Part shown: piece after piece, positions 5,012 through 20,969 of the stretch
How positions within the stretch are numbered: the first letter of the stretch is position 1
Layout: each line of letters begins with the position of its first letter
IMG/VR virus record: IMGVR_UViG_3300043420_002024
Coordinates: 1 to 52,865 of that record
Direction: 5' to 3' (one strand)
DNA: 52,865 bases
Source: a virus
The notes under the pieces: model-generated
What the model was told of the DNA's origin: nothing
The model's database searches: none
The model's input: the letters and a program-made list of their open reading frames with translations, nothing else
Position numbers and translations under genes: made by a program

Positions 5012-6778
5012 ATGATCTCATTATCTCCAAAAGAACTGTTTGTAAAATTTTCTAACGATTATTGTGACACTAATATCACTTGGGGTAAAAGGCGTTTGTT
5101 ATGGGGAAAAGGAGCCTCTTATGATATCGACGGCTTCAGTATTTTACTTAAATCTTTACCACATTCTTGTTTTAGTCACTATGTTAGAAATATCGACAAA
5201 AGCTCTAATGATGAATATAAAACAAGATTTAGTGATTTCGTTGGCAGCGGCTCTGGCAAAATAGCTTTGCCATATAAGTTTTTACAAATATTAGACCCAA
5301 AAGCTTATACAGAAATTCAACAGGATCAATATGCTGGTGTTGCACACGCTGTTAGAAATACCTGTGATTTAAGTAGGGCTTGTTATATATTTTGGAAAAA
5401 CAGAAAAACAGAAAATCATAATTTTTATGAATGGGAAGCCAGAGGAGCAATAGAACCTATTTATCATTATGCTCATAATTCTTTAGCCAAAGCCCTATTT
5501 TTTATAGGTCCAAATTATATGCCTTCATTTCGAGGTAGTAAAAGAGGTAACGGATGTTCTGATGCGTACAGCCAATTAGAATGTCTTCCTGAGTTGTGGG
5601 GCGCTAGTTATAGTTGTCAATGCCCTCCTAATCAACAGTGTCCACCAGCAGAAAAGATATGTGACATAGAATTGTGTTGTATCCCAGCCGAAGGAACGGA
5701 ATCTTGTAGAGAAAGATCTGATTATGGAGGATGCTACGATAAAGCAAATTGTGCTAACGAAATTTTTCCAGAACAAACTGGAATATTTTTAAATAATAAT
5801 AGCAACTTAAGTATACATGCAGGCTATTTTGTTCGTAAGTCTTATAGCGGGTATGGCAATTTTATCAATAATGGAGATTATTTTGGTACACAAGATGATA
5901 GTATTTTTCTAAAATTTGCTCAATTGAACAATCTCATGAATTATATTCAACCTTTCTATGACAGAGAAATTTCAAATTTTCCAATATATAAAGGGTTGAA
6001 TCTTGATTTTTCTCCCCCGATTAAAAGAGTTCAGAATGTTACTATGGTTTCCACAGTAGAGCAAGTAAAAGATTTCTTGTATAACGGATACGGAATAGTA
6101 CTTAGTACGAATGTAGGATTTTCTGATAAAAGAGATTCAATAGGCATTTCTTATCCAGATAGGCTGTGGTATCATACTCTCTCAATCATAGGATATGATG
6201 ACACAAAAAGAATATATCCAGAAGGACTATATCTAATAGCAAATTCTTGGGGAAACTGGAATTATGGTGGGCAACCGGATTGGGGGCCAATACCAGAAGG
6301 ATCGTTTCTGATTACAGAATCACATTTAAGATGCATATTGAATCAATTCCCGCCTGTTCACAAATATAAAGACTGCAATGAGGTAGATTTTAAACCGTGT
6401 CGAATGCTAGACCTAGAAGACATAAACCAAAGATTTAATACTCCTCCAACAACAATCGTTGAGGCTATTGGTACTGCTGGAGACGGGTTTTATTTGTATG
6501 ACGCAGACAGAAGCGATAGAATAAGATGGATCAGACTAGACTGTAACAACAAACAAATAAGATACTTATCACAAAATAGATGCAATCAGGCAATAAAAAA
6601 AGAGCTAGTAGATACAAATGCTTGCGGAGATAATTGTGAACCGTTAGGAGATTGTGATTATACTCAATGCGGACCAAATCAGTCTCCTTGGGGAATAGCG
6701 TTTGTTATTTCTTTTGATGACGACCCTCCATATTACAGAAAAGATTTTAACTATAACCAATTTTTTGTGCCCAGATAA
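5012..6778 (+). CDS. Papain-fold pseudoprotease with a Cys-rich insertion
   Basis: 588 residues, clearly paralogous to the protease at 1415-2344. Shared blocks are a VGSGSGKIALPYK-type block, YTEIQ, RNTCDLSRA, the STVEQVKDFLYNGYG block, and the catalytic-region motifs. His388 (YHTLSIIGYDD) and Asn411 (IANSWGNW) are kept. The position of the catalytic Cys is Gly109 (QYAGVAHA), with no Cys nearby, so peptidase activity is unlikely. Residues about 185-260 form an insertion with more than a dozen Cys, which may bind metal or form disulfides. About 130 extra residues follow the papain fold. A binding or structural role is inferred. Confidence 0.78.
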   Translation: MISLSPKELFVKFSNDYCDTNITWGKRRLLWGKGASYDIDGFSILLKSLPHSCFSHYVRNIDKSSNDEYKTRFSDFVGSGSGKIALPYKFLQILDPKAYTEIQQDQYAGVAHAVRNTCDLSRACYIFWKNRKTENHNFYEWEARGAIEPIYHYAHNSLAKALFFIGPNYMPSFRGSKRGNGCSDAYSQLECLPELWGASYSCQCPPNQQCPPAEKICDIELCCIPAEGTESCRERSDYGGCYDKANCANEIFPEQTGIFLNNNSNLSIHAGYFVRKSYSGYGNFINNGDYFGTQDDSIFLKFAQLNNLMNYIQPFYDREISNFPIYKGLNLDFSPPIKRVQNVTMVSTVEQVKDFLYNGYGIVLSTNVGFSDKRDSIGISYPDRLWYHTLSIIGYDDTKRIYPEGLYLIANSWGNWNYGGQPDWGPIPEGSFLITESHLRCILNQFPPVHKYKDCNEVDFKPCRMLDLEDINQRFNTPPTTIVEAIGTAGDGFYLYDADRSDRIRWIRLDCNNKQIRYLSQNRCNQAIKKELVDTNACGDNCEPLGDCDYTQCGPNQSPWGIAFVISFDDDPPYYRKDFNYNQFFVPR

Positions 6779-6791
6779 AAGGATTTAGAAA

Positions 6792-7418
6792 ATGAAAATA
6801 GCATATTGTATTACTGTATGTAATGAATATTTAGAAATACAAAAATTGATAAACCATATGATAAAATATGTGAATCTAAATGAAGACGAAATTATTGTTT
6901 TATGTGACTCCACAAAAACTAATGAAAAAGTAATAGGGTTTTGCAAATATTGTTCAGACACATATGGTATTAATTTTGTTTTAGATGAATTTCAAAATCA
7001 TTTCTCTGATTGGAAAAACAAATTCAAAACACTATCTAAAAGCGACTACATTTTTCAAATAGATGCAGACGAACTCCCCAACCCATTCCTGCTACACAAT
7101 TTAAAAACTCTACTAACAAATAACGCTAATATAGAATTGTTTTGGATTCCAAGAGAAAACTATGTTGACGGTATAACAGAAGAGCATATAATAAAATGGA
7201 AGATGACATTGGATGACAAATCTAGAATCAATTTTCCAGACTATCAAGCTAGATTGTTTAAGAATAAACCAAAAATAAAATGGGTAAACAAAGTACACGA
7301 AATTATTTCTGGCACAGACAACCAAGCTGCTTTACCTCCAGAAGAACAGTTTTCACTACTACACACAAAAAGTATTGATAAACAAGAACAGCAAAATAAT
7401 TATTACGATACCTTATGA
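6792..7418 (+). CDS. Family 2-like glycosyltransferase
   Basis: 208 residues, shorter than many GT2 proteins. The N-terminus (MKIAYCITVCNEY) and the metal/nucleotide-binding DXD motif (FQIDADELPNP) fit a GT-A fold. GT2 enzymes move a sugar from a nucleotide donor to an acceptor in the cytosol or at the inner membrane face. It opens the thirteen-gene sugar cluster with an AAAGGAT site and overlaps the next gene at its stop. Donor and acceptor cannot be read from sequence. Confidence 0.78.
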   Translation: MKIAYCITVCNEYLEIQKLINHMIKYVNLNEDEIIVLCDSTKTNEKVIGFCKYCSDTYGINFVLDEFQNHFSDWKNKFKTLSKSDYIFQIDADELPNPFLLHNLKTLLTNNANIELFWIPRENYVDGITEEHIIKWKMTLDDKSRINFPDYQARLFKNKPKIKWVNKVHEIISGTDNQAALPPEEQFSLLHTKSIDKQEQQNNYYDTL

Positions 7419-8338
7419 AAATATTAATTACTGGCGGTAGCGGAATGTTGGGTAGACATCTACAAGAAAATATTCCATATGCTCTTTTTCCAACAAGCCA
7501 AGAACTTAATTTATTAGACATCAACAATATTAATGAGTATCTAATAACACATAAGCCAGACATCATAGTTCACGCAGCAGCAAAAGTTGGCGGAATATCT
7601 GATAATATTGCTCATCCGTATGATTTTTTTGAAAAAAACGTATCAATAAACACGAACATAATTAGTTGTTGCGTAAAACACAAAATAAAAAAATTAATAG
7701 GAATATCTAGTACATGTGCATATCCAGATATTGTTGATAAATATCCTATGATAGAATCTGATTTACATTCAGGAAAACCTTCTGATACTAATTTAGCATA
7801 TAGTTACGCAAAGAGAATGATGTGTGTTCAAATTGACGCCGCAAATAAACAGTATAATACTGGATATAATTACATCATACCTTGCAACTTATATAGCGAA
7901 TATGATTTTCTTCATAATGAAACAAAAATGCATTTTATAACAGCTTTAATTTACAAGATAGTACTAGCCGAAAAGAATAAAGATAGGCATATTACTCTTT
8001 TTGGTTCTGGCAGACCAATGAGACAGTTTATGTACGCTGGAGACCTATCTCGGATAATTAAATTAATAATTGATCAAAACATATCTGCAAATATGAACAT
8101 TGCTCCTCCACATAGCAATCTTACTATAGACTATATGGCAAAAACAATACTAGACATATTAGATAAAAAAAATTGGAAAATTGAATATGACCAATCCAAA
8201 CCAGACGGGCAATATAGAAAAGATGTTTCTAACGAATTAATGGAATCTTATATACCGAATTTTAATTTTACTACTTTTCAAAAAACGATACCAAGGATAT
8301 ACAATCAATATGTTACGCAAATGGGCACTAAAAACTAA
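7415..8338 (+). CDS. GDP-L-fucose synthase-like SDR epimerase/reductase
   Basis: 307 residues, an extended short-chain dehydrogenase. It has an NAD(P) loop TGGSGMLG near the N-terminus, the HAAAKVGGI block typical of Fcl/WcaG, an SSTCAYP catalytic segment around residues 98-104, and Tyr129-x3-Lys133 (YSYAK). Fcl epimerises and reduces GDP-4-keto-6-deoxymannose to GDP-L-fucose. Colitose and related SDRs are close alternatives. No GDP-mannose 4,6-dehydratase is evident in the window, so the substrate may come from the host or from the RmlB-like enzyme at 11017. Confidence 0.8.
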   Translation: MKILITGGSGMLGRHLQENIPYALFPTSQELNLLDINNINEYLITHKPDIIVHAAAKVGGISDNIAHPYDFFEKNVSINTNIISCCVKHKIKKLIGISSTCAYPDIVDKYPMIESDLHSGKPSDTNLAYSYAKRMMCVQIDAANKQYNTGYNYIIPCNLYSEYDFLHNETKMHFITALIYKIVLAEKNKDRHITLFGSGRPMRQFMYAGDLSRIIKLIIDQNISANMNIAPPHSNLTIDYMAKTILDILDKKNWKIEYDQSKPDGQYRKDVSNELMESYIPNFNFTTFQKTIPRIYNQYVTQMGTKN

Positions 8339-9680
8339 AAAGCATTTAATACTAAAGTTGGTTAAGTCTTTTGTGTCTCAAAAAAAACAAATGGCTACTC
8401 AGTGGACACCCAATAAAGACTGGGTAAATTATTCTGGACCATTCTTTGATCATGAAGAATATATAGAAGCTATTGATACAATTTTAGATGATTGGCTTAT
8501 CTTAGGAGAAAAAGCCAGACAGTTTGAAACCACTTTTGCTTCACAACTAGGAAAAACAGATGGCGTATTAACAAATTCTGGATCTTCAGCAAATCTTTTA
8601 ATGTTAGCTGCTTGTAAATCTAAAAGACTATTTAACCTACCTAAAGGATCTCAGTTCATAACATCTGTAGTATGTTTTCCAACCACAATAAATCCAATTA
8701 TACAGAATGGGTTTGAGCCAGTATTTGTTGACGTAACACTCCCGTCTTTAAATCTAGATTTAGATGAAGTGGAAAAAAAATTAGAACAAGATAAAGAAGG
8801 TAAAATCAAAGGTATTATATTTGCTCATGTTCTTGGAAATCCACCAGATATGGATAGACTTATGAAAATTGTAGCAAAATATAACTTAATTTTTTTAGAA
8901 GACGCTTGTGATGCCCTAGGTTCTAGTTGGTCAGGACAACCATTGGGGTCTTTTGGACACCTATCAAGTTGTTCGTTTTTCCCTGCTCATCATATGACTA
9001 TGGGAGAAGGAGGATACGTCGGCGTAAACAGTATGAAAGAAAGAATGGTTGTTTCGAGTTTAAGAGACTGGGGAAGAGCCTGTTATTGTAATACTAAAAA
9101 GCCTGGAGATGTAACTTGCGGTACAGCATGTGGAACAAGATTTAATTCGTGGTTTAAAGATCGTAAAGATATCATCTATGATCATAGGTATGTATTTGAC
9201 GAAATAGGCTATAATCTTAAGCCTATAGAAATGCAAGCAGCAATGGGCTTGAAACAAATTAAAAAATTAGAATACATGCACAATAAAAGAAAATATAATT
9301 TTCAAAAATTGTACAATATATTTATGAAATATTCTGAATATTTTATACTTCCAGAAAAATTTGAAAAAGCAGACGTATCTTGGTTTGGGTTTTTGGTAAC
9401 ACTAAAAAATAATGTTCCTTTCACAAAAGCTCAAATTGTATCTTTCCTAGAAAACAAAAAAATACAAACTAGATCATACTTTACTGGGAATGCACTATTC
9501 CATCCTGCTTACAGTGATTTTGCAAAAGAATACAAGAATTGCGACACAGCTTTTCCTGTAGCCACAAAATCTACAATAGATACTTTTTTTCTTGGTGTTT
9601 ATCCAGGAATAACTGATGATCAATTAGCGTACATAGAAAGTGTGGTTGATTTATTTATGAAGGAGCACACCAATGCCTAA
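8310..9680 (+). CDS. rfbH: RfbH-type CDP-4-keto-6-deoxyglucose 3-dehydrase (E1)-like enzyme
   Basis: 456 residues, DegT/DnrJ/EryC1 fold. The PLP lysine is replaced by His227 in FFPAHHMTMGEGG, the hallmark of C-3 dehydrases rather than aminotransferases. Cys200-x57-Cys258-x1-Cys260 reproduces the spacing of the [2Fe-2S] ligands of Yersinia E1. The fourth ligand is probably in CGTACGTRF, after an insertion of about six residues. The segment YDHRYVFDEIGYNLK is also family-typical. E1 removes the C-3 hydroxyl of a 4-keto-6-deoxy sugar and needs a reductase partner (E3), which is not seen here. The long 5' overlap with the upstream gene is kept because the extra N-terminal helix resembles RfbH. 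Confidence 0.87.
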   Translation: MLRKWALKTKKHLILKLVKSFVSQKKQMATQWTPNKDWVNYSGPFFDHEEYIEAIDTILDDWLILGEKARQFETTFASQLGKTDGVLTNSGSSANLLMLAACKSKRLFNLPKGSQFITSVVCFPTTINPIIQNGFEPVFVDVTLPSLNLDLDEVEKKLEQDKEGKIKGIIFAHVLGNPPDMDRLMKIVAKYNLIFLEDACDALGSSWSGQPLGSFGHLSSCSFFPAHHMTMGEGGYVGVNSMKERMVVSSLRDWGRACYCNTKKPGDVTCGTACGTRFNSWFKDRKDIIYDHRYVFDEIGYNLKPIEMQAAMGLKQIKKLEYMHNKRKYNFQKLYNIFMKYSEYFILPEKFEKADVSWFGFLVTLKNNVPFTKAQIVSFLENKKIQTRSYFTGNALFHPAYSDFAKEYKNCDTAFPVATKSTIDTFFLGVYPGITDDQLAYIESVVDLFMKEHTNA

Positions 9681-10521
9681 TTATGTTAGTATGCCTTTAT
9701 TACCCGCAATAGGAAATTTTGGTTCTCAATTACAGCAGTATGCTTCTATTCTTTCTATAGCTAAACAAAATAATAAAAAAGTAATTTTCCCTAAATATTC
9801 TTTGAGCCTAGACAATTCGCATGGATTTAGAATTATAGAAGCTTTTGACTTAGATATTACTTTTGTTGACGATGATTTTAAAGAAGATTTTGTTTATTGG
9901 GGCCACAACACTCAAAAAGAAGTTGATGAAAATGTTTTTAATTTAGAACCAGACAAAAACTATATATTTACGAATAGGTTTAATAGTTTTAAGTATTGGT
10001 ATCCATATATTAGAGAAACTATATATGAAAAGTTTGTTTTTTTTGAACAAATAGAAAAAGAAGCCAATGAAATGCTAAAAGATATCAAAAGCAAAAATTC
10101 TCCTATTGTATCTATGCATGCTAGAAAAGGAGATTATTTAGACGACATACATCTTAATGTATATTGTCAGCTAGATTTTACATACTATAAAAAAGCCTTA
10201 GATAGTCTCAAAGAAACAGATCCTACTATACTCCTTTTCTCTAATGATATCGAGTGGTGTCAAAATCATCTAAATCAACTATCTCCAAACATATATTATG
10301 TTAAAGGGTCTAATGACTATGTAGATATGTGCCTAATGTCAAAGTGTGACCATAATATAATAGCAAATAGTTTTTTTAGTTGGTGGGCTGCGTTGTTAAA
10401 TAAACACAAAAATAAAAAAATAGTTTGTCCAAAAAATTATGTTAAAAATAATATCAATACGTTTATTAACGGAAACTATTACCCAGAAGAATGGTATGCT
10501 ATAGATAATGACGACTCATGA
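9673..10521 (+). CDS. GT11 alpha-1,2-fucosyltransferase-like protein
   Basis: 282 residues. The GT11 pattern is readable: an N-terminal GNFGSQLQQYA block, His149-Ala-Arg-Lys-Gly-Asp-Tyr (HARKGDY), an FSNDIEW block, and MSKCDHNIIANSFFSWW near the C-terminus. GT11 enzymes transfer fucose from GDP-fucose, usually in alpha-1,2 linkage, onto cell-surface glycans. A strong AAGGAG site lies upstream and the start overlaps the RfbH stop. Its presence fits the fucose-synthase-like gene at 7415, although other 6-deoxy sugars could be donors. Confidence 0.83.
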   Translation: MPNYVSMPLLPAIGNFGSQLQQYASILSIAKQNNKKVIFPKYSLSLDNSHGFRIIEAFDLDITFVDDDFKEDFVYWGHNTQKEVDENVFNLEPDKNYIFTNRFNSFKYWYPYIRETIYEKFVFFEQIEKEANEMLKDIKSKNSPIVSMHARKGDYLDDIHLNVYCQLDFTYYKKALDSLKETDPTILLFSNDIEWCQNHLNQLSPNIYYVKGSNDYVDMCLMSKCDHNIIANSFFSWWAALLNKHKNKKIVCPKNYVKNNINTFINGNYYPEEWYAIDNDDS

Positions 10522-11002
10522 CGTAATCCACACAAATATAAAAGACTGCCTACTAATAAAACCAAAAATCCATAAAGATAATAGAGGTAGATTTAGCGAG
10601 ATATATAAAGATCAAATAGACAATATTCTAGACTGTAAACAAATCAATTATAGCTATTCCAAGAAAGGTGTTTTGAGAGGCATACATAAAACCCCTTATG
10701 CCAAATTAATTACATGTGCATTGGGAGAGGTTTTCGATGTCTGTTTGGATTTAAGAGAAAATAGTCCATCATATGGACAATATTTTTGCGCCAAGTTAAA
10801 TCCAGATTCAATGCAACAATTATACATACCTCCTAATTGTGGTCATGGATTTTATTCTTTTACTGAAAGCATAGTAATATACATGCAAGAAAAAATTTAT
10901 GACCCAAATGCAGACGAAACTTTTGGCTACAATAAATACCATATACCCTGGCCAGAAAAACCAACAATTATGTCACAAAAAGATCGTAAGGCTTCTGTAT
11001 AA
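10508..11002 (+). CDS. RmlC-like dTDP-4-keto sugar 3,5-epimerase family protein
   Basis: 164 residues, a cupin of the RmlC family. Motifs are DNRGRFSEIY, KKGVLRGIH with the probable catalytic base His60, GEVFDVCLDLRENSPSYG, and PPNCGHGFYSF. RmlC inverts C-3/C-5 of a 4-keto-6-deoxy nucleotide sugar; relatives act at one carbon or isomerise ketones. It overlaps the GT11 gene by 14 bases and precedes the RmlB-like gene. It is a little shorter than typical RmlC (about 180). Confidence 0.82.
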   Translation: MTTHDVIHTNIKDCLLIKPKIHKDNRGRFSEIYKDQIDNILDCKQINYSYSKKGVLRGIHKTPYAKLITCALGEVFDVCLDLRENSPSYGQYFCAKLNPDSMQQLYIPPNCGHGFYSFTESIVIYMQEKIYDPNADETFGYNKYHIPWPEKPTIMSQKDRKASV

Positions 11003-11016
11003 GGAGGAAATTTTTC

Positions 11017-11973
11017 ATGGATAAAAAAATATGCTACATAACAGGATGCCTAGGTTTTATAGGATCTTATGTCACCAAACTAGCATTAGAATCAGGATAT
11101 TATGTTAGAGGAATAGACAAAATTACTTATGCAGCAAATAAATCGTTGCTTAAAGATTTTTTGTCTTACGACAATTTTACTTTTGAACACAAAGATATTA
11201 ACGATATTGAGTTCTTATATGAATGCGATTATTTTATTAATGTAGCAGCAGAAACTCATGTAGGAAACTCAATTACAAAAAGCCAAGACTTTATCAAGTC
11301 TAATATTGATGGAGTATACAATATTTTAGAAGCGATAAAAAATTACAGAGCAGAATCAGCCTGCAAACCTATATTATTACATTTTAGTACAGATGAAGTG
11401 TACGGAGATATACATGCCGGAACACACACTGAGAAAGATCTACTAAAACCAAGCAACCCGTATTCTGCCACAAAAGCGGCTGCGGATATGCTTATATTAG
11501 CTTGGGCTAGAACATACAATATACAATATGTTATAGTCAGACCAACAAATAATTACGGTATAGGACAATATGTAGAAAAATTGATACCAAAAACATGCAA
11601 ATATCTTAATCTAAATAAAAAGATACCTGTACATAATAATGGCGAGCCAATTAGAAATTGGTTACACGCAGAAGATACTGCTAGAGCTGTAATGAAAATT
11701 ATGGAAACAGAATCAGTTAATGAAATATATAACATTGCTGGTGGTTTTGAACAAAAAAATATAGACACCATTAAAGCAATACTTAATGAATATAATATCG
11801 AAGAAAAAGACTATGAAAAACATATAGATTTCTCTTTGTCCCGTCCTGGTCAAGACGCAAGATATGCTTTAGATGATAGCAAACTAAAAAATATTGGGTG
11901 GCAGCCAATTAAAGAATTTAATCAAGAAATCAAAGAAATAACAAATTATTACAAAGAAAATTTTATATGGTGA
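11017..11973 (+). CDS. RmlB-like nucleotide-sugar 4,6-dehydratase (SDR)
   Basis: 318 residues. It has an N-terminal NAD loop TGCLGFIGS and the dehydratase signature STDEVYGD, which carries the Thr-Asp-Glu used for water elimination in RmlB. YSATK supplies the Tyr/Lys pair, and RPTNNYG is also family-typical. It would make a 4-keto-6-deoxy nucleotide sugar, the common precursor for the RfbH-like, RmlC-like and SDR enzymes around it. It has the strongest ribosome-binding site in the cluster (AAGGAGG). The nucleotide (dTDP, CDP or GDP) cannot be assigned. Confidence 0.82.
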   Translation: MDKKICYITGCLGFIGSYVTKLALESGYYVRGIDKITYAANKSLLKDFLSYDNFTFEHKDINDIEFLYECDYFINVAAETHVGNSITKSQDFIKSNIDGVYNILEAIKNYRAESACKPILLHFSTDEVYGDIHAGTHTEKDLLKPSNPYSATKAAADMLILAWARTYNIQYVIVRPTNNYGIGQYVEKLIPKTCKYLNLNKKIPVHNNGEPIRNWLHAEDTARAVMKIMETESVNEIYNIAGGFEQKNIDTIKAILNEYNIEEKDYEKHIDFSLSRPGQDARYALDDSKLKNIGWQPIKEFNQEIKEITNYYKENFIW

Positions 11974-12275
11974 TATACATAGATATTGATGACACTATTT
12001 GTTTAAGCCCTAATAAGCCGGATTACACAGACTCGACCCCTATTGTCGAAAATATAAAAAAAGCAAACTTGCTTTATGAAATGGGCCATACTATTATATA
12101 TTGGACGGCAAGAGGAACGCTGTCTGGGATAGATTGGTCAGAAGTTACCCATAAACAATTTGAAGAATGGGGAGTAAAGTATCATGAGATTAAATTTGGC
12201 AAACCTTATTATGATTTATTTATAGACGATAAAAACATAAATTCTAAAAACTGGAAAGAAATCATTGATGTCTGA
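11967..12275 (+). CDS. Small HAD-family phosphatase
   Basis: 102 residues. The HAD motif I is DIDDT (Asp6, Asp8), followed by a YWTARG segment as motif II and FGKPYYDLFIDDK as motifs III/IV. There is no cap domain, like the small HAD proteins found in capsule and O-antigen clusters. It may dephosphorylate a sugar phosphate, for instance the product of the NeuB-like enzyme encoded next. The start overlaps the SDR stop (ATGGTGA) and its end overlaps the next start. Confidence 0.77.
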   Translation: MVIYIDIDDTICLSPNKPDYTDSTPIVENIKKANLLYEMGHTIIYWTARGTLSGIDWSEVTHKQFEEWGVKYHEIKFGKPYYDLFIDDKNINSKNWKEIIDV

Positions 12276-13341
12276 TATATTTAATAATTTGTTTGTTTTA
12301 GAACTAGCTAACAACCACTGGGGATCGTTAAGAAGAGGCAAAAAAATTATTAGAGAGTTTGCCAAAGTTGTCCGTAAAAATAATGTAAAAGCCGCTATCA
12401 AACTACAATTTAGAGACGTAGATAATTTTATTCATCAGGAATATAAAAACAAGGGAAAGGGAAAGGACCTATTATCTCTAAAAAAACAAGATAGATATAT
12501 ACAAAAAACACAAAGAACAAAACTCTCTTACGATGAATTTTACGAATTGGTAAAATATATAACAAAACAAGGTTGTATACCTATGGCTACGCCATTTGAC
12601 GAAAAGTCAGTAGATTGGTGTGTAGATATGGATCTTCCTATTATAAAAATTGCAAGTTCAGATATTAATGATTGGATACTAATAAATAAAATTTCTGAAA
12701 CTAAAAAGCCTGTTATTATATCTACCGGGGGAGCAAATGAAAAACAAATTGATGATGTTGTTAAGTTTTTTGAAAAAAGAAATATACCATTAGCAATAAA
12801 TCATTGCGTTTCAAAATATCCTAGCGAAGACCATGAACTAGAATTAAATCAGATTGATTATCTAAAAAACAGATACCCAAATCACGTTATAGGCTTGTCT
12901 ACACATGAATATCACGATTGGTACTCTTCTATGTTTATTTCTTATGCAAAAGGAGCAAGAACATGGGAAAGACATATAGATATACCTTATGATCCAAAGG
13001 ACGAACAAAATGCAGTCAGTCCCTACTGCTCGCTGCCGCATCAAATAAACGAATGGCTTCAGTCTTTTAACAAAGCTAACATAATGTGTGGAGACACTAG
13101 TAATAATAGAAGATCGATAGATGATAAGGAATCAAATTATTTGCTAGCGTTGCATAGAGGATTATATTTAAATAGAGACATAAAAAAGGGAGAAACAATA
13201 TCTATCAAAGATTTATATAGTGCTGTTCCTTTACTAAAAGACATAGACCATTTTTCTTCTAGGGATTTTATTGAAGCAGATACGGTAGCTGTTGAAGATT
13301 TACAAGCAAACCAGCCATTAACAAAAAAAGACATTCAATGA
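12268..13341 (+). CDS. neuB: NeuB-like sialic/nonulosonic acid synthase family protein
   Basis: 357 residues from ATG 12268; a TTG at 12265 is also in frame. The N-terminus (FVLELANNHWG) matches the NeuB TIM barrel start, and the C-terminal 65 residues (LNRDIKKGETISIKDL onwards) form a SAF domain. NeuB enzymes condense phosphoenolpyruvate with an N-acetyl sugar to make nine-carbon acids. No NeuA, NeuC or pseudaminic/legionaminic partners are visible, so the substrate may differ or be host-supplied. It lies between a HAD phosphatase and a ThDP enzyme. Confidence 0.82.
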   Translation: MSDIFNNLFVLELANNHWGSLRRGKKIIREFAKVVRKNNVKAAIKLQFRDVDNFIHQEYKNKGKGKDLLSLKKQDRYIQKTQRTKLSYDEFYELVKYITKQGCIPMATPFDEKSVDWCVDMDLPIIKIASSDINDWILINKISETKKPVIISTGGANEKQIDDVVKFFEKRNIPLAINHCVSKYPSEDHELELNQIDYLKNRYPNHVIGLSTHEYHDWYSSMFISYAKGARTWERHIDIPYDPKDEQNAVSPYCSLPHQINEWLQSFNKANIMCGDTSNNRRSIDDKESNYLLALHRGLYLNRDIKKGETISIKDLYSAVPLLKDIDHFSSRDFIEADTVAVEDLQANQPLTKKDIQ

Positions 13342-15047
13342 AATTATCTGATTACGTCTTTTCTTTTTTAAAAAGCAGAAACATAGATACTGTATTCACC
13401 GTATCTGGTGGAGGCTGTATGCATTTGATAGATTCTCTTGGTAAAAGCGGAATCAAATACATTTGTAATCATCATGAACAAGCAAGCGCCATTGCGGCAG
13501 AATCTTATTTTAGAACCTCCGGCAAGCCTGGATGTGTATTAGTTACCACAGGTCCAGGAGGTACTAATGCTTTAACAGGAGTTTTGTGCGCATATCAAGA
13601 TTCTATTCCTATGATAATTATTTCTGGACAAGTACCTGTTAGCCAATTGTCTGAAGAAACAAAATGCAGGCAAATAGGGCAACAAGAATTTAATATTGTA
13701 GAAACTGTCAAACATATGACCAAATACTCGAAACTGGTAAAAAAACCAAAAGATATAAAATTTGTACTAAATAAAGCATATTATATTGCAACTACAGGAA
13801 GACCAGGACCAGTATGGATAGACATACCATTGGATGTGCAAGCTTCAAATATTGAAGAGGATAAACTAAAAAGTTTTTTCCCACCAAAACCAAAAACCAA
13901 AAAGAATATTTCCAAAGTATTAGCTAGTATTAAGCTCGCTAAAAAACCTGTCATTGTTATAGGAAACGGAATAAAATCTTCTGGAACACAAAAAGAATTA
14001 ATAAATTTTTTGAACAGCACAAATATTCCCGTAATGTCGGGACCACATTCGGCAGTAGATATCGTTAATAATGATTATTCTTATTATGCTGGAAGATTTG
14101 GTATCCTTGGACAGAAAACAAGTAATCAGATTATACAAGAATCAGATCTAATTATTTCTTTAGGTTCTAGACTCAATCCAAAAATGATAGGATATAACCA
14201 TAATGATTTTGCTCCTAAAGCACAGAAAATAATAGTAGATGTCGATAAGCACGAATTAAATAAATTAAAATTCAAACGTTCTATTAAAGTAAACATAGAC
14301 TTAAAAAATTTCTTTGAACTAGTTAAAGACTTTAAAGTTGAAAAAAAACAAGAATGGCTATCTTATGTCTTAAAGAAAAGAAGTGAAGAAAAATTGGTAT
14401 TAGATAAGCATAGAAACATAAAAAACTATGTCAGCACATATGTTTTCTCTGAACAATTACAAAATTGGTTACTAGATGATTCTATAATTGTTACCAGCGA
14501 TGGTACTGCTCATGTTGTTCCGCTCAAAACTATACAACTAAAAAAACAACAACAGCTTTTTAGCAACGAAGGAACCGCACCTATGGGATACGGACTCCCC
14601 GCTGCTATAGGCGCTCATTTTGGTAGCAAGAAAGAGGTAATTTGTATAGAAGGAGATGGCAGCATGATGATGAATCTCCAAGAGCTGGAAACCGTAAAAT
14701 ATCATGATTTGCCAATTAAAATTTTTATCATTAACAATGAAGGATATCTATCGATCAAACTAACCCAAAATTCTTTCTTTAAAGGACATTTGGTAGGCTC
14801 AGAAATCACTTCTGGAGTTAGTATTCCTTCTTTTCAAAAAATATCAGAAGCGTTTGATATTCCTTATACAAGCATAAAGGATAACACAGAAATCGAACCA
14901 GTATTAGAAAAAGTTTTCAGAAATCACTCTATGTGTATAATAGAAATATTTTCTGATCCTAACGAATTACATGAACCTAAAGTTTCAGCAAAAGGAATAG
15001 ATAGTAAAGGGAAAATTATACCAGGGAAACTAGAGGACATAAAATGA
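13338..15047 (+). CDS. ThDP-dependent enzyme, acetolactate-synthase superfamily
   Basis: 569 residues with the three domains of the family. Glu47 in NHHEQASA is the probable cofactor-activating residue. TTGPGGTNALTG and SGQVPVSQL are typical of the N-terminal domain, and the ThDP/metal motif runs from Gly439-Asp440-Gly441-Ser to Asn-Asn about 27 residues later. Homologues in O-antigen clusters are often annotated as acetolactate synthase. YerE of the yersiniose pathway is one that adds a two-carbon branch to a 4-keto-3,6-dideoxy sugar. With RfbH nearby, a carbon-branching role is attractive but inferred. Confidence 0.82.
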   Translation: MKLSDYVFSFLKSRNIDTVFTVSGGGCMHLIDSLGKSGIKYICNHHEQASAIAAESYFRTSGKPGCVLVTTGPGGTNALTGVLCAYQDSIPMIIISGQVPVSQLSEETKCRQIGQQEFNIVETVKHMTKYSKLVKKPKDIKFVLNKAYYIATTGRPGPVWIDIPLDVQASNIEEDKLKSFFPPKPKTKKNISKVLASIKLAKKPVIVIGNGIKSSGTQKELINFLNSTNIPVMSGPHSAVDIVNNDYSYYAGRFGILGQKTSNQIIQESDLIISLGSRLNPKMIGYNHNDFAPKAQKIIVDVDKHELNKLKFKRSIKVNIDLKNFFELVKDFKVEKKQEWLSYVLKKRSEEKLVLDKHRNIKNYVSTYVFSEQLQNWLLDDSIIVTSDGTAHVVPLKTIQLKKQQQLFSNEGTAPMGYGLPAAIGAHFGSKKEVICIEGDGSMMMNLQELETVKYHDLPIKIFIINNEGYLSIKLTQNSFFKGHLVGSEITSGVSIPSFQKISEAFDIPYTSIKDNTEIEPVLEKVFRNHSMCIIEIFSDPNELHEPKVSAKGIDSKGKIIPGKLEDIK

Positions 15048-15568
15048 AAAAAGTTAATACAGAACAGCCAGATTTACATTGGGAATTTGTTAATGTTACA
15101 GAATGTGTCGTGTTAGATTTGGGGTGTGGAAGATGGGAGCATGTTGAATATAGAGAAAAAACTTGGCCTACAACACCAGAATATTTTATATCAAAAGGAG
15201 CCTCTAGGGTTTATGCTCTAGACGCCGACAATAATGAGATCAAGTGGTTTCGTGAAAAATTTGCTCAAGACAATAGATATCTTTTTGAGCCCTTTTACAT
15301 CACATCTGCGAATGCTGTAGAACAAATAATACAAAAGGTAAAACCAGATTGTATTAAATGCGACATAGAAGGAGGAGAGGAATTTCTGTTTTCTATAAAC
15401 AAAGAAGTATTCAATTCAGTTAAAGAATATTATATAGAGACGCATAATGATCGACTCTTTAACATGGCCTTAAGCACTTTTAATAAACAAAACTACAAAA
15501 TAAGAGAGACAATAGACCTTACTCATACGAATGGTATTTGTAAAGTTGTATTTGCTTATCGAGACTAA
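15044..15568 (+). CDS. FkbM-like SAM-dependent methyltransferase
   Basis: 174 residues. The SAM-binding loop is VVLDLGCGRWEH, the acidic strand-2 residue is in YALDAD, and CDIEGGEEF matches the FkbM-family KxDIEGxE block. It is shorter than most FkbM proteins (about 200-250). It probably O-methylates a sugar or polyketide-like acceptor; in this cluster a sugar is likely. It overlaps the ThDP gene by four bases (ATGA). Confidence 0.75.
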   Translation: MKKVNTEQPDLHWEFVNVTECVVLDLGCGRWEHVEYREKTWPTTPEYFISKGASRVYALDADNNEIKWFREKFAQDNRYLFEPFYITSANAVEQIIQKVKPDCIKCDIEGGEEFLFSINKEVFNSVKEYYIETHNDRLFNMALSTFNKQNYKIRETIDLTHTNGICKVVFAYRD

Positions 15569-15586
15569 ATTAAAGGAATAGCACAA

Positions 15587-16348
15587 ATGATTTTTTTTCC
15601 GAAAACAAACCGGTTAATAAAATATTGCCAAAACGAAAATCTAACCGAAATAGCAAATAGATACGAAACAGATAAAGGAGATATAGATAAGCACCAGCTA
15701 TCATGGGGCTCTAGCTATCCAGAACATTTTTGTATGGCTTATACCAAAACTTATGAAAAATATATGAAAGAACATAGGAATAATGAAGTGCCATTAAATG
15801 TTTTTGAGGTAGGGATCAAAGATAAAAGATTTCCATTCGCGTCTTGTAAAATGTGGCTTTCTTATTTTAAAGAAATCAATCTATATGGAATGGATAATTT
15901 ATGGGGCTCTTCTTTAGATAAAGAAAAAAGATCTATAGAAGAACTAAATGAATTAGGTGTCAATTTTATATACGCAGATCAAGGAAATTTTGAAGATTGG
16001 GATATGATTGCAAATACTATTCCAATGAAATTTGATTTTTTTATAGAAGATGGTAGCCATTGGCCTAATCATATGGTTGTTACTTTATGGAAAGCTATTC
16101 ATCTGATGAGTTCTGGCGGTTATTATTTTATGGAAGATATACAAAACCCAGTAACTAGTAGAGGAAAATTTAAATATGATAATTCTTTGTTGGCAGATGA
16201 ATTATTAATGTCTTTACATACAAAAGAATTTAATAGCTGCTTTTTAAACGAAAAACAAAATAAAGAAATCAATAATGCTTTTGAACTAGTAGAATTGGTT
16301 TTAGATCCACATAAAATTAATTATCTTGCTGTGTTCAAGAAAAAATAA
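15587..16348 (+). CDS. Class I SAM-dependent methyltransferase, sugar-cluster type
   Basis: 253 residues. An N-terminal ANRYETDKG segment, a VFEVGIKDKR loop, an acidic YGMDN strand and an FFIEDGSHWPNHM motif resemble the class I methyltransferases of macrolide-sugar and O-antigen clusters. Those enzymes act on hydroxyls of a glycan or nucleotide sugar. It has its own AAAGGAA ribosome-binding site. Two different methyltransferases in tandem suggest a multiply methylated product. Confidence 0.73.
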   Translation: MIFFPKTNRLIKYCQNENLTEIANRYETDKGDIDKHQLSWGSSYPEHFCMAYTKTYEKYMKEHRNNEVPLNVFEVGIKDKRFPFASCKMWLSYFKEINLYGMDNLWGSSLDKEKRSIEELNELGVNFIYADQGNFEDWDMIANTIPMKFDFFIEDGSHWPNHMVVTLWKAIHLMSSGGYYFMEDIQNPVTSRGKFKYDNSLLADELLMSLHTKEFNSCFLNEKQNKEINNAFELVELVLDPHKINYLAVFKKK

Positions 16349-16360
16349 GGAATAATCAAA

Positions 16361-17203
16361 ATGAATATTTTAGTAACAGGATCAAGAGGATTATTAGGTA
16401 AAGAATTATCACGACAACTTAAAGAAAAGTATGGTTACAATATATACGAAATAAACAGAAGTAACTGCGATTTACTAAACTTTGAATCCGTAAAAGATTT
16501 TTTTGTTAACACAGACACTAAATATGATTTAGTTTTACACACAGCAATTGAAGGTGGAAGAAGAACAAAAAAAGATGAAGAAGTAATAGTTTATAGAAAT
16601 ATTTTGATGTTATACAATTTATTGTCTTTTCAAAATTACTATCAATGCATAATCTCTTTTGGCTCTGGCGCTGAATTAGACAGAAGATATGACGTTAATC
16701 CAATGTCCATCAACAGATATCCAGTTGACCCATATGGTTTGTCTAAAAGCGTAATAGATAAAATGTCTTTAGTAGAAGAAAAACTATGTAATTTTAGAAT
16801 TTATAATTGTTTTGGGGTTAACGAACAGCCTGACAGAATGATTAGATCTAATGTGAACAAATATATCAACAAAGAAAATATAGTTATTCACCAAAATAGA
16901 ACAATGGACTTTTTTTATATTGATGACTTAATAAAGCTTATTGATTATTTTATTACGAGTAATAACATACCAAAAGTTTTCGATTGTTGTTATAAAACAA
17001 AAACAACCTTGTTAGATATAGCAAATATCATTAATAATTTAGATGAACACAAAGTAGAAGTCATACACAATAAAGAAGAAGATTTTCATATAAGCTGTTC
17101 GAATAAAGATTTTTATGGTCAATATGTGGAAACCCATATTCCATATATCGGCTTAGAACAAGGAATTCGTGAAATGTACAACCATTTTAAAAAGGCAAAT
17201 TAA
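16361..17203 (+). CDS. NAD(P)-dependent SDR, RmlD/fucose-synthase-like
   Basis: 280 residues. An N-terminal VTGSRGLLGKEL loop, a SFGSGAE segment supplying the Ser, and DPYGLSK supplying the Tyr-x3-Lys pair define an extended SDR. Members of this group reduce a 4-keto group, with or without epimerisation, at the last step of a deoxysugar pathway. In the yersiniose pathway a reductase follows the ThDP step, and this gene could play that part. It is divergent from the SDRs at 7415 and 11017, so it is not a recent duplicate. Confidence 0.76.
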   Translation: MNILVTGSRGLLGKELSRQLKEKYGYNIYEINRSNCDLLNFESVKDFFVNTDTKYDLVLHTAIEGGRRTKKDEEVIVYRNILMLYNLLSFQNYYQCIISFGSGAELDRRYDVNPMSINRYPVDPYGLSKSVIDKMSLVEEKLCNFRIYNCFGVNEQPDRMIRSNVNKYINKENIVIHQNRTMDFFYIDDLIKLIDYFITSNNIPKVFDCCYKTKTTLLDIANIINNLDEHKVEVIHNKEEDFHISCSNKDFYGQYVETHIPYIGLEQGIREMYNHFKKAN

Positions 17204-17207
17204 TTAA

Positions 17208-18521
17208 ATGAGAAACAATATAACATTCTGTATCGCTTCAGCAAAAAATGAAAAAGAATATACTAAACTATTGATTAAGTCTTTAACAGAAAACACAAAA
17301 ATAGAAGATCATGAAATATTAGTTTTTATTGATAGCGATAATCAAAATACTTATGAAGATTTGTTAGAAATAAAAAAGACTTTAACAAACCTCAAAGTAC
17401 ACAGAAACACAAAAAAATTTCCAGTTGGCGGTCAAAGAAATGTGTCGATAATGTTTAATGCTGCAGCAAATGACATAGTCTGTTATTTGCAGTCAGACAT
17501 GGTGGCTGGAAAGAATTTAGATAAATACATATTAGAATCAATAACCGAAAATTCGGTAGTGTGTTGCACAAGAATAGAGCCTCCTGTTCATCCAGATGGG
17601 CCAGAAAAGATTGTTGAAAACTTTGGCTTTGACACTAACGATTTTCAATATGGTGCTTTTCAAGATTTTGTTGCAGAACTACAATCAAAAGACAAGCCTA
17701 ATACTTTGGGTCATTTCGCACCTTTTGCTGTACACAAAAAAACATGGTTTGATAAATTGGGGGGTTTTGATACTCAATTTAGATGCTCTAGAGAAGACTC
17801 TGATACTATATTAAGAATGCGCTTAAATAATATAGATATGATACAATCTTGGAAAGCTTATGTTTATCATTTCACTTGTGTGTCTTCCAGAGGAAAAGAT
17901 TGGTTTCGTCCCCAAAAAGATAAAAATATAGAATACCAAAATCAATTACAGGTATTAGCTGATGAAGAAGAATTAAAAAGGTATGTTAGAAAATGGGGTT
18001 TTTTTGGCCACGAACCACAACCAATATACAACATTGGAATGCATATAGAAATTGATAAGTTTGTTAATTTTCAAATATTAGAATTTATAGAAGTTTATGT
18101 AAAAACACTATATTTAAATAGTCCTGAAATTACAGAAGAATTAAAGAGAAGAATTGTTTTTAATGCTGAATATTATTCTAATCTAAGATGGAATTATTCT
18201 ACAGAATATTGGAATAACGTTAAGTATTTATTTAATCAAGATGATTTTGTAGACCATATACAATATGCAAAAAATGATGAAAATCTAAAAAACGATATAA
18301 TCATATCGGCTAAATATTCTGAAATAGAAGAAAATTTTGATAAAGATTTGTCGAGTTTTATTGCAAGCCTCAACTCTTATGTTCATCAAAAACCTTTAGG
18401 TGTTTACCCAATCTTTCCGTTTAATGTCAAAATCAAAAACAAAATAGACATGTCAAACTTATACAAAAAGGTCAAAAATACTGACATTTTGTTAGATTCT
18501 GATGAGTTTGTATTTTCTTGA
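17208..18521 (+). CDS. Family 2 glycosyltransferase with C-terminal extension
   Basis: 437 residues. The GT-A fold starts with NITFCIASAKNE, and the nucleotide-binding acidic motif is in YLQSDMV (about residue 104). FDTQFRCSREDSDTILRMRL resembles the GT2 acceptor/ED region. The last 200 residues are a mostly helical extension with many Asn, Tyr and Glu and no recognised family. It closes the cluster and ends eight bases before the -35 of promoter P2. Confidence 0.77.
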   Translation: MRNNITFCIASAKNEKEYTKLLIKSLTENTKIEDHEILVFIDSDNQNTYEDLLEIKKTLTNLKVHRNTKKFPVGGQRNVSIMFNAAANDIVCYLQSDMVAGKNLDKYILESITENSVVCCTRIEPPVHPDGPEKIVENFGFDTNDFQYGAFQDFVAELQSKDKPNTLGHFAPFAVHKKTWFDKLGGFDTQFRCSREDSDTILRMRLNNIDMIQSWKAYVYHFTCVSSRGKDWFRPQKDKNIEYQNQLQVLADEEELKRYVRKWGFFGHEPQPIYNIGMHIEIDKFVNFQILEFIEVYVKTLYLNSPEITEELKRRIVFNAEYYSNLRWNYSTEYWNNVKYLFNQDDFVDHIQYAKNDENLKNDIIISAKYSEIEENFDKDLSSFIASLNSYVHQKPLGVYPIFPFNVKIKNKIDMSNLYKKVKNTDILLDSDEFVFS

Positions 18522-18528
18522 AACAGGC

Positions 18529-18556
18529 TTGACGCATTAACTGTTTTGCGTATAAT
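18529..18556 (+). promoter_or_regulatory. Sigma70-like promoter P2
   Basis: TTGACG at 18529-18534, 16-base spacer, and a perfect TATAAT at 18551-18556 followed by AGTA. It is the best promoter match in the window. It drives the small ORF at 18622 and the ribonucleotide reductase operon. The core -35 and -10 hexamers, spacer length and downstream AGTA closely match the promoter at 34527. Confidence 0.78.
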
Positions 18557-18773: not shown

Positions 18774-20969
18774 ATGTCCGCTCTGCAAGAACTTCAAAAT
18801 TATACATTTGTTAGTAAATATGCTCGTTGGATTGAAGCTAAGAAAAGAAGAGAAACATGGAAAGAAGCAGTTGAACGAGTAAAGGGTATGATGCTTACAA
18901 AGTATGCAGAATTTGATATCAATCAAGATATCGATTGGGCCTATGATTTAATGTACAAAAAGAAAGTTCTTGGCAGTCAGAGAGCATTGCAGTTTGGCGG
19001 AGAGCCTATTCTTAAAAGACACGCAAAAATTTATAATTGCACAAGCTCTTATTGTGATCGTCTCAGATTTTTCCAAGAATGCTTTTGGTTGCTTCTTTGT
19101 GGAAGCGGTACGGGTTTTAGTGTTCAAAAACATCATGTCTCAAAATTGCCAAAATTGCGACACGATCCACAAAAAGGTCGCGGGGTGAAACATGTTATCG
19201 AAGATAGTATTGAAGGTTGGGCAGATGCTCTTGGTGTGCTTCTTACTTCTTACTTTGATAGACCTAGTGATGACCGCTTTAAGCATTATCAAAATTGTAA
19301 TATAGTATTTGATTACTCAGAAATCAGAGAAAAAGGAGCTCCCTTAAGTTCTGGTGTTGGAAAAGCTCCAGGTTATGAGCCTCTTGCTAATGGTCTCGAA
19401 AAAATAAGAGCTTTGCTAGATAGGTGTGTTGCCAATAAGCAAGAAAAATTACGGCCAATTGATGCTTATGATATTGTTATGCATAGTAGTGATGCCGTAT
19501 TGTCAGGCGGTGTTCGCCGCTCTGCGTCATTAGCTTTATTTAGTCCGGACGACGAAGAAATGGCTAAGGCTAAAACAGGTAATTGGTTTGTCGATAATCC
19601 ACAAAGAGCACGAAGTAACAACTCGGCACTTCTTCTCAAAAACGAGACTACTTATGAGCAATTTGCTGCGCTCATGGAGAGCGTAAAAGAGTTTGGAGAG
19701 CCTGGATTTATCTGGAGCGAATCAAAAGATATGATCTTTAATCCATGCGTAGAAATTGGCATGTGGCCTGTTGATGAAGACACAGGGGAATCTGGATGGC
19801 AAGGATGTAATCTTTCTACCATTAATTGTTCTTCCCTAGCAGACGAAGAAGATTTTTATGAAAGATGTCGTGCCGCAGCCATTATCGGTACTCTTCAAGC
19901 TGGATTTACAAATCTAGATTATCTTGGAGATATAAGCAAAAAGATTTTTGACAGAGAAGCTCTTTTGGGGGTTTCTTTAACGGGTATCATGGAGAAGCCC
20001 GACCTAGTTTTAAGCGACAAAGTTTTAAAGAAGGGTGCGGAAATCGCCGTAAAAACTAATAAAGAATTTGCCGATAAAATCCGAATTAATCAAGCAGCAA
20101 GAGTAACATGTCTAAAGCCTGAAGGAACATCGAGTTCTATGCTTGGTACTAGTTCGGGTATTCATCCACATCATGCTAAAAGATATATTCGTCATGTGCA
20201 AGCAAATGTTCTAGAAGCACCTTATGGATATTTTAAAAGCTATAATCCGCAAGCTTGTGAAAAAAGCTCTTGGTCCGCAAATGATACTGACGAAGTAATT
20301 AAATTTCCAATAGAAGTGCCAGACGGATCAAAATTAAAAAATCAACTACCGGCGGTTGACATGCTTAATGTGGTTAAAAATACACAAGTGCATTGGGTAA
20401 ATTCTGGCAAAAACAAAAATCTATGTACGCAACAATATTTAAGCCATAATGTTAGCAATACTGTTACAGTAAAACCTGACGAATGGGAGGAAGTAACCAA
20501 ATTCATCTATAAAAATCGTCAATACTATGCTGGAATTAGCCTTATTCCACAGAGCGGAGATAAAGATTATCCACAAGCTCCTTTTACAACTGTCTATACA
20601 AGCAGAGAAATAGTAAAAGAATACGGAGACGCTTCTCTGTGGTGCTCCGGATTAATTGAGTTGGCTTTACAAAATTTTGACAAAAACTTATGGGCGGCTT
20701 GTGATTATGTAACATTAAACCAGTCCAAAGACAGTGATCCCGAATCAAAGCTTTATTTCATGACTAAAATGAAAAATTTTGCCGGTAAATATTTTGAAGG
20801 AGATATCAAAAGATTAACCTATTGTATGAAAGATGTTTATAACTGGAAAATATATTGCGATCTACAAGATAGTTTCAATAAAGTTGATTATACACAACTA
20901 TCAGAATCAGAGGACAATACTACTGGCATAGAGGAAATTAGTTGTGCTGGCGGCGCTTGTCTAATTTAG
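18774..20969 (+). CDS. nrdJ: Adenosylcobalamin-dependent (class II) ribonucleotide reductase
   Basis: 731 residues, the size of the monomeric Lactobacillus RTPR type (739). It reduces ribonucleotides to deoxyribonucleotides using a B12-generated thiyl radical. Cys325-x-Glu327 in NPCVEI is the thiyl/acid pair, Cys89 and Cys345 fit the redox pair, and Cys724-x4-Cys729 at the C-terminus is the swinging re-reduction pair. The C325-C345 loop is longer than the 11-residue spacing I recall for RTPR. FWLLLCGSGTGFSVQ and HPHHAKRYIRHVQ are family-typical. It has a strong AGGAGA site after promoter P2. By eye it is less A+T-rich than the sugar genes. No small subunit is needed. Confidence 0.9.
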   Translation: MSALQELQNYTFVSKYARWIEAKKRRETWKEAVERVKGMMLTKYAEFDINQDIDWAYDLMYKKKVLGSQRALQFGGEPILKRHAKIYNCTSSYCDRLRFFQECFWLLLCGSGTGFSVQKHHVSKLPKLRHDPQKGRGVKHVIEDSIEGWADALGVLLTSYFDRPSDDRFKHYQNCNIVFDYSEIREKGAPLSSGVGKAPGYEPLANGLEKIRALLDRCVANKQEKLRPIDAYDIVMHSSDAVLSGGVRRSASLALFSPDDEEMAKAKTGNWFVDNPQRARSNNSALLLKNETTYEQFAALMESVKEFGEPGFIWSESKDMIFNPCVEIGMWPVDEDTGESGWQGCNLSTINCSSLADEEDFYERCRAAAIIGTLQAGFTNLDYLGDISKKIFDREALLGVSLTGIMEKPDLVLSDKVLKKGAEIAVKTNKEFADKIRINQAARVTCLKPEGTSSSMLGTSSGIHPHHAKRYIRHVQANVLEAPYGYFKSYNPQACEKSSWSANDTDEVIKFPIEVPDGSKLKNQLPAVDMLNVVKNTQVHWVNSGKNKNLCTQQYLSHNVSNTVTVKPDEWEEVTKFIYKNRQYYAGISLIPQSGDKDYPQAPFTTVYTSREIVKEYGDASLWCSGLIELALQNFDKNLWAACDYVTLNQSKDSDPESKLYFMTKMKNFAGKYFEGDIKRLTYCMKDVYNWKIYCDLQDSFNKVDYTQLSESEDNTTGIEEISCAGGACLI

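Follow-up and report, generated by a model that had tools for sequence, protein, structure and literature searches.

The IMG/VR virus record IMGVR_UViG_3300043420_002024 (52,865 bases, analyzed whole as the window and probably a genome fragment) carries a cassette of thirteen sugar genes (g1 to g13; Table 1), which we read, with modest confidence, as encoding the synthesis of a deoxysugar branched at C-4, of the YerE/ErwE kind, by a phage pathway with its own donor-making step. Judged from its sequence, the new part of the cassette is a NeuB-family phosphoenolpyruvate (PEP)-dependent synthase, g8, that lacks the arginine for an N-acetyl group, is unaccompanied by NeuA, and lies beside a YerE-like thiamine diphosphate (ThDP) carboligase, g9. 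The reading draws on computed family assignments, intact catalytic residues, a gene core conserved among viruses, and the exchange of modules between them.

Among all PDB sequences, g9 is closest to JanthE (8RPH; 371 bits, 34% identity), a characterized YerE-like enzyme (PMC12188165), and the next match, the acetolactate synthase (ALS) 5AHK, scores 250 bits. The AlphaFold2 model of g9 (predicted local distance difference test score [pLDDT], 86) has JanthE as its top Foldseek match, with a template modeling (TM) score of 0.93, compared with 0.87 or less for ALS structures, and a phylogenetic tree separates 25 YerE-like rows, JanthE among them, from six ALS rows by a branch with support of 100/99; JanthE was the one characterized YerE-like sequence in this tree, and the place of g9 inside the YerE-like group is less certain. 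The ThDP machinery (E47, G439-D440-G441, and N466-N467) is invariant in 15 viral proteins, as are Y286 and K548, the counterparts of JanthE Y297 and K567, residues named in an engineering study and matched by means of a one-position numbering offset between paper and PDB chain that was derived by hand. By sequence, predicted fold, and tree, then, g9 is a YerE-like carboligase rather than a biosynthetic ALS, as the preliminary description of this DNA had supposed. With the YerE-like carboligases (YpYerE of Yersinia, JanthE, and ErwE of Pectobacterium), g9 has in common the ThDP motif and an RfbH-type partner in the locus, but it has the canonical GDG where JanthE has CDG, it belongs to a virus-only clade, and it adjoins a PEP-dependent synthase.

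The latter, g8, shares its fold, PEP and metal residues, and SAF domain with the NeuB/PseI nonulosonate synthases, and the equivalents of these residues (E25, K53, T110, S132, Y186, H215, E234, and H236) are invariant in 27 viral NeuB copies. It departs from them at the equivalent of R314, which is I or V in 27 of 27 viral copies and also in all YerE-linked bacterial NeuB proteins of the close subfamily. Arg314 positions the N-acetyl group in the meningococcal sialic acid synthase (PMC6795526), and its replacement by I or V implies that the acceptor of g8 is probably not an N-acyl sugar. The NeuA family CTP_transf_3 (PF02348) was found in none of 14 viral records and was positive in 11 of 14 control genomes, the best PDB match (3G8R) is named a probable spore coat polysaccharide biosynthesis protein E, and scores against the NCBIfam nonulosonic acid (NulO) synthase models were 135 and 127, against cutoffs of 340 and 400. 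On this sequence evidence, g8 is probably not a sialic acid synthase. A nonulosonic acid pathway was rejected on the loss of R314 and the lack of NeuA.

HpcH/HpaI aldolases, 4-hydroxy-2-oxovalerate-type aldolases, and NeuB-type synthases all form 4-hydroxy-2-oxo acids. When the neighbors of 78 bacterial YerE-like genes, drawn from the best 80 matches of one scan, were sorted, HpcH/HpaI was present at 27 loci, an HMGL-type aldolase at 16, and NeuB at 11; the best scores of the HMGL-type protein and of the first HpcH protein were with 4-hydroxy-2-oxovalerate aldolase and HpaI, respectively. Exactly one of these families occurred at 52 of the 78 loci and two at a single locus, whereas 10 loci with two or more would be expected if the families were independent; none of 20,000 permutations gave so low a value, a figure that overstates significance and is no true probability, as the loci are related. 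The viral cassettes (n = 32) likewise have either NeuB (27) or HpcH/HpaI aldolases matching PF03328 (5), never both. ErwE does not use pyruvate and prefers 4-hydroxy-2-oxo acids (PMC12247030), and this preference, taken with the near exclusion of three makers of such acids, leads us to propose the partner enzyme as the maker of the donor. A reciprocal test that began from NeuB, over 1,176 genomes of three phyla and newly sampled loci, showed that 9 of the 10 loci whose NeuB is at least 51% identical have a YerE-like gene no farther than about 7 kb away, and four further NeuB loci at 35 to 38% identity have a YerE-like gene together with RfbF, RfbG, and RfbH. NeuB thus appears to occupy the slot of the 4-hydroxy-2-oxo-acid aldolases, which points to a branch longer than the two carbons of yersiniose.

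The sugar to be branched would come from g6 and g3. In g3 the E1 equivalents H220 (which replaces the lysine for pyridoxal phosphate), C193, C251, C253, and C261 are retained and the score exceeds the RfbH model cutoff of 423; judged by these residues, it is a true E1-type 3-dehydratase. Its annotated start overlaps the preceding gene by 29 bases and E1 homology begins at residue 32, so that the true start may be internal. Nine other viral contigs (L001, L002, L003, L106, L108, L109, and L124-L126) have a shorter 3-dehydratase homologue in which the histidine is kept and the cysteines are lost; ColD likewise has the histidine and no cysteines. Of the 32 viral contigs, 29 have one kind or the other, and some of the absences may be due to truncation. 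The dehydratase g6 retains its catalytic TDE and YxxxK residues (STDEVYGD and YSATK in the sequence), has dTDP-glucose 4,6-dehydratases as its best PDB matches, and scores 305 bits with TIGR01181, compared with 76 for the CDP-glucose 4,6-dehydratase model TIGR02622; many bacterial relatives carry RfbF and RfbG where the phage has this RmlB-type enzyme. PF00483 was not found in the window. From the RmlB type of g6 we infer that the pathway need not run on CDP and that a cytidylyltransferase may be dispensable if host dTDP-glucose is used. The preliminary description had held that host enzymes must fill in for a missing E3 reductase and cytidylyltransferase: the E3 is indeed absent from the cassette, whereas the cytidylyltransferase is not necessarily a gap.

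In the route that we propose, in which the substrates, the order of steps, the nature of the donor, and the destination are inferred, g6 would form an NDP-4-keto-6-deoxyhexose, probably from host dTDP-glucose, and g3 would strip its 3-hydroxyl with the aid of host electron carriers. PEP would be joined by g8 to some aldehyde or aldose, which may be a phosphate ester that the HAD-type phosphatase g7 trims, giving a 4-hydroxy-2-oxo acid that g9 would decarboxylate, with transfer of the acyl unit to C-4 of the 3,6-dideoxy-4-keto sugar. The branch ketone would be reduced by g12, methyl groups would be added by g10 and g11, and soluble glycosyltransferases would transfer the sugar within the cytoplasm, with virion proteins as the likeliest acceptors. 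The product would be a long-branched sugar, not yersiniose.

The preliminary description had taken yersiniose as its model, an analogy that is not supported in detail, as a NeuB-type synthase in the aldolase slot points to a longer branch. With the yersiniose A pathway, in which YerE joins pyruvate to CDP-3,6-dideoxy-4-keto-glucose, the cassette has in common a 4,6-dehydratase, an E1 3-dehydrase, a YerE-like enzyme, and a reductase, but its dehydratase is of the RmlB type rather than RfbG, RfbF and E3 are missing, and a NeuB-type donor enzyme and two methyltransferases are added. The predicted likeness to erwiniose- and caryophyllose-type sugars (ErwE and MMAR_2332) lies in donors that are hydroxylated 2-oxo acids with longer chains than pyruvate (PMC12247030), whereas the phage donor would be PEP dependent. 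Bacterial RfbF-RfbG-RfbH-short-chain dehydrogenase/reductase (SDR)-NeuB-YerE loci (for example, L168 and L169) have the core enzyme set of the phage, with RfbF and RfbG in place of RmlB and often with membrane proteins nearby; their NeuB proteins are 51 to 59% identical to that of the phage, and their ThDP proteins are 46% identical at most.

When IMG/VR was scanned with the ThDP and NeuB proteins, about 50 loci were recovered; the set was then narrowed to 32 viral contigs, among them the window and a few near-identical pairs. Across these, the core comprises the ThDP enzyme (31 contigs), RmlB (31), the reductase SDR12, of which g12 is the copy in the window (30), a 3-dehydratase (29), and NeuB (27). 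Three gene orders were apparent: type A, NeuB-ThDP-(methyltransferases)-SDR12, to which the window belongs; type B, NeuB-ThDP-SDR-AroB-like cyclase-sugar kinase-SDR12; and type C, ThDP-two HpcH/HpaI aldolases-Fe-S protein-HAD-SDR12. The AroB-like protein of type B scores best with TIGR04425, an "AroB-related putative sugar phosphate phospholyase (cyclizing)," its kinase is named by resemblance alone, and the module could yield a carbocyclic branched sugar. The type B module (SDR, TIGR04425, and FGGY-like kinase) stands beside NeuB and a YerE-like gene both in a virus (L115:12817-16172) and in the bacterial locus L169. The 11-gene bradyrhizose cluster includes a dTDP-glucose 4,6-dehydratase, but neither an acetolactate synthase nor a dehydroquinate synthase is named in the paper that describes it. 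In type C cassettes (L011:13213-14370), an LdpA-like protein with two 4Fe-4S sites lies between the aldolases and the HAD gene.

Viral ThDP proteins form a virus-only clade (24 rows; SH-aLRT, 100), and so do viral NeuB proteins (27 rows; support, 95). Two relatives of the window phage, L105 (ribonucleotide reductase [RNR] 82% and PhoH 65% identical, with the same downstream order) and L127, are both type B. The NeuB tree joins the window to two type B rows in a supported group of three, the nearest neighbors of the window being L105 and L127 (97), whereas in the ThDP tree the window lies in the type A clade (100) and L105 and L127 lie in the type B clade. From this conflict, an exchange appears to have affected the stretch between NeuB and SDR12, at a site that is fixed in the genome, and the sequences offer here the strongest evidence of viruses maintaining and diversifying the cassette. 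Plasmid and phage collections yielded no close copy of the cassette. Among the phage-collection matches, the record named Campylobacter phage A11a (L141, MG065691.1) has an ALS that hardly differs from E. coli IlvB, suggesting that DNA of the host or the laboratory entered the record, and several others are bacterial contigs. Terminase and gp23 searches of the related contigs detected a T4-like gp23 in L110; most of the weak terminase matches resemble the PhoH ATPase and give no phage classification. PHROGs assigned no function to the large proteins that flank the cassette in L107 and L130.

With regard to destination, simple hydropathy with a threshold of at least 6 transmembrane segments found no multispan product among 562 open reading frames (ORFs) of 29 viral loci, compared with 85 of 941 in bacterial loci; a multispan membrane protein was present in 44 of 64 bacterial loci and 0 of 29 viral loci. 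The lack of a flippase, polymerase, or exporter in the viral loci implies that attachment of the sugar probably takes place in the cytoplasm, and the absence of multispan proteins speaks against an O-antigen or capsule pathway complete in itself. The simplest target would be virion proteins, a suggestion that we advance tentatively.

Other readings of the cassette differ in destination, in the number of sugars, or in origin. Remodeling of the host surface that blocks rival phages would accord with the O-antigen-type loci, with RfbF, RfbG, and RfbH, in which the bacterial homologues sit, and with the GT11 and GT2 enzymes common in such loci; the missing multispan proteins make it somewhat unlikely, although the sugar could still feed host machinery. 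Glycosylated DNA is known from the T-even phages and the window encodes a dNMP-kinase-like protein, but a sugar destined for DNA bases is quite improbable, as no dCMP hydroxymethylase, thymidylate synthase-like, or base glucosyltransferase family was detected in the part of the ORFs of this contig fragment that was scanned. It is unlikely, too, that two unrelated sugars are made, one yersiniose-like, from the YerE-like enzyme and pyruvate, and the other a NeuB-derived ulosonic acid activated by the host. The NeuB family does normally make nonulosonic acids, host NeuA or KdsB could supply the activation, and YerE itself takes pyruvate (PMC12247030); against this stand the R314 replacement shared by viral and YerE-linked bacterial copies, the absence of NeuA from 14 viral records, the distance of g8 from the NulO synthase cutoffs, and the linkage of NeuB to YerE together with its near exclusion of the aldolases.

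Two further readings have been practically discounted. For a biosynthetic ALS that supplies branched-chain amino acids speak the ALS models that top the NCBIfam list of g9 (364 bits), but this score is well under the cutoff of 538, JanthE leads by 121 bits, the 100/99 split separates g9 from ALS, and the genes around it are sugar genes, so that we reject this role as exceedingly improbable. The idea that the cassette was captured from a host O-antigen locus recently and in one event, and may be decaying, could appeal to bacterial homologues of all components; it is very improbable, and its simple form is refuted by the virus-only ThDP and NeuB clades. Moreover, bacterial ThDP relatives are at most 46% identical to g9, whereas identities among the type A viral proteins and their closest relatives run from 55 to 68%, all 13 cassette frames are open, and RmlB occupies the place of the bacterial RfbF/RfbG pair. 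The comparison of gene order, with a conserved viral unit in about 30 contigs, likewise speaks against the broken host transfer that the preliminary description had named, along with a ThDP protein clustering inside the biosynthetic ALSs, as refuting its reading; neither outcome occurred.

Several observations weigh against the branched-sugar pathway that we favor. No E3 reductase family match was obtained among the 13 cassette proteins, the other ORFs of this possibly partial contig having been scanned only in part; RfbH enzymes are known to act on CDP sugars; and the score of g6, 305, lies under the NCBIfam equivalog cutoff of 365, so that its substrate is not certain. Besides the relatedness of the loci behind the permutation figure, one locus (L165) has NeuB and HpcH together, and between one-quarter and one-third of the bacterial YerE-like loci have none of the three donor families. 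A YerE-like neighbor was found for none of five NeuB homologues of 36 to 41% identity from the planctomycete phylum, and the NeuB fold alone therefore does not imply a branched-sugar pathway. Finally, g2, g4, and g5 may belong to a second sugar.

The 13 ORFs of the cassette (6792-18521) are all on the plus strand and are separated by gaps of no more than 18 bases or overlap by up to 29; the preliminary description of thirteen tightly packed genes was right in substance as to coordinates and families. Its SDR reductases do belong to SDR families, although the 307-residue g2 is GDP-fucose synthase-like by best score (NF047922; 172 bits, under the cutoff of 500), and its count of three glycosyltransferases stands, one being GT11 and the other two GT2. 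The epimerase g5 scores 132 bits with TIGR01221, under the cutoff of 155.75. An intact DxDxT motif can be read in g7, whose homologues (65 to 84% identical) adjoin NeuB in other viral contigs; g8 starts with TTG, and an ATG follows directly at 12268. The Foldseek matches of g10 are methyltransferases, at about 1e-7, and its family occurs in 9 of 32 viral contigs. The SDR12 family lies near 25 of the 78 bacterial YerE-like genes.

Table 1. Features of the sugar cassette and of the interval that follows it
Feature	Position	Strand	Evidence and occurrence
g1, GT2 glycosyltransferase	6792..7418	+	Pfam PF00535 1.8e-7; family in 12/32 viral contigs
g2, GDP-fucose synthase-like SDR	7415..8338	+	Pfam Epimerase 1.6e-42; family in 6/32 viral contigs
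g3, RfbH/E1-type 4-keto-6-deoxyhexose 3-dehydrase (DegT/RfbH)	8310..9680	+	NCBIfam RfbH NF011936 442 bits; PDB 3BCX 304 bits
g4, GT11 glycosyltransferase	9673..10521	+	Pfam PF01531 2.2e-25
g5, RmlC-like 3,5-epimerase, accessory	10508..11002	+	Pfam PF00908 1.1e-41; PDB 2B9U 2.5e-28
g6, RmlB-like dTDP-glucose 4,6-dehydratase, core	11017..11973	+	TIGR01181 305 bits; family in 31/32 viral contigs
g7, small HAD-type phosphatase	11967..12275	+	TIGR01689 6.3e-6
g8, NeuB-family PEP-dependent synthase with SAF domain, core	12265..13341	+	PF03102 9.5e-43; nearest PDB 3G8R 182 bits
g9, YerE/JanthE-like ThDP carboligase, core	13338..15047	+	JanthE 8RPH 371 bits; AlphaFold2 and Foldseek; tree
g10, FkbM-like S-adenosylmethionine-dependent methyltransferase (174 aa), type A module	15044..15568	+	AlphaFold2 pLDDT 93.2; Foldseek
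g11, MycE-like sugar O-methyltransferase (253 aa), type A module	15587..16348	+	PDB 3SSM 1.1e-9, 8IA9 1.8e-7
g12, SDR reductase, core	16361..17203	+	Pfam Epimerase 1.5e-20; family in 30/32 viral contigs
g13, GT2 glycosyltransferase	17208..18521	+	PF00535 3.4e-9
Promoter-like site, interval between cassette and RNR gene	18529..18556	+	TTGACG-16-TATAAT, 11/12; suggestive only

Promoter-like sites were no commoner in the scan than in shuffled sequence (78 versus 86). The upstream flank has a holin-like ORF, and a 588-residue ORF just before the cassette (5012-6778), common to L127 (44%), contains the papain-like stretches HTLSIIGYDD and IANSWG, with no obvious active-site cysteine and no Pfam or PHROG match. 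Downstream lie phage genes for a class II ribonucleotide reductase, PhoH, UvsX, DnaB, primase, the dNMP-kinase-like protein, and DNA polymerase III alpha. The reductase (class II, B12 type; 18774-20969) is directly 3' of the cassette, and its 82% identical counterpart lies downstream of the cassette in L105. The polymerase, to which the nearest phage polymerases are about 33% identical, is split over two genes, 29132-31024 (PHP/NTPase part) and 32926-34530 (finger/OB part), separated by three ORFs, of which the first is an RNase_T-type exonuclease. Two more glycosyltransferases (phrog_2170) are encoded at 35095-37883, away from the cassette, and glycosyltransferases of this family adjoin the cassette in L004 and L117. 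A 2,755-residue ORF on the minus strand (43446-51713), without a Pfam or PHROG match, may encode a large virion or tail protein.

More generally, and with some reserve, we suggest that C-branched-sugar loci of bacteria and uncultured phages are modular, a NeuB-type synthase, an HpcH/HpaI aldolase, or a 4-hydroxy-2-oxovalerate-type aldolase supplying the donor of a YerE-like enzyme, and that phages swap the tailoring module that follows the carboligase gene (either methyltransferases or an SDR, AroB-like cyclase, and sugar kinase), giving many higher branched sugars, perhaps for virions. Long 2-oxo-acid donors bearing hydroxyl groups are required for branched higher sugars such as erwiniose and caryophyllose, and the pattern of gene neighbors offers a testable source for many loci; a 2025 review of branched-sugar enzymes does not mention NeuB and treats aldolases solely as an alternative carboligation route (PMC12247030). 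The chemistry would be new relative to isolated phages, in which NeuB matches to g8 were found in 3 of 50,697 records, all at 31% identity or less. That viruses swap sugar-tailoring modules at one fixed position in the genome is relevant to how variation in phage glycans arises, and it suggests a viral mode of diversifying unusual sugars that the open-access literature has not previously described.

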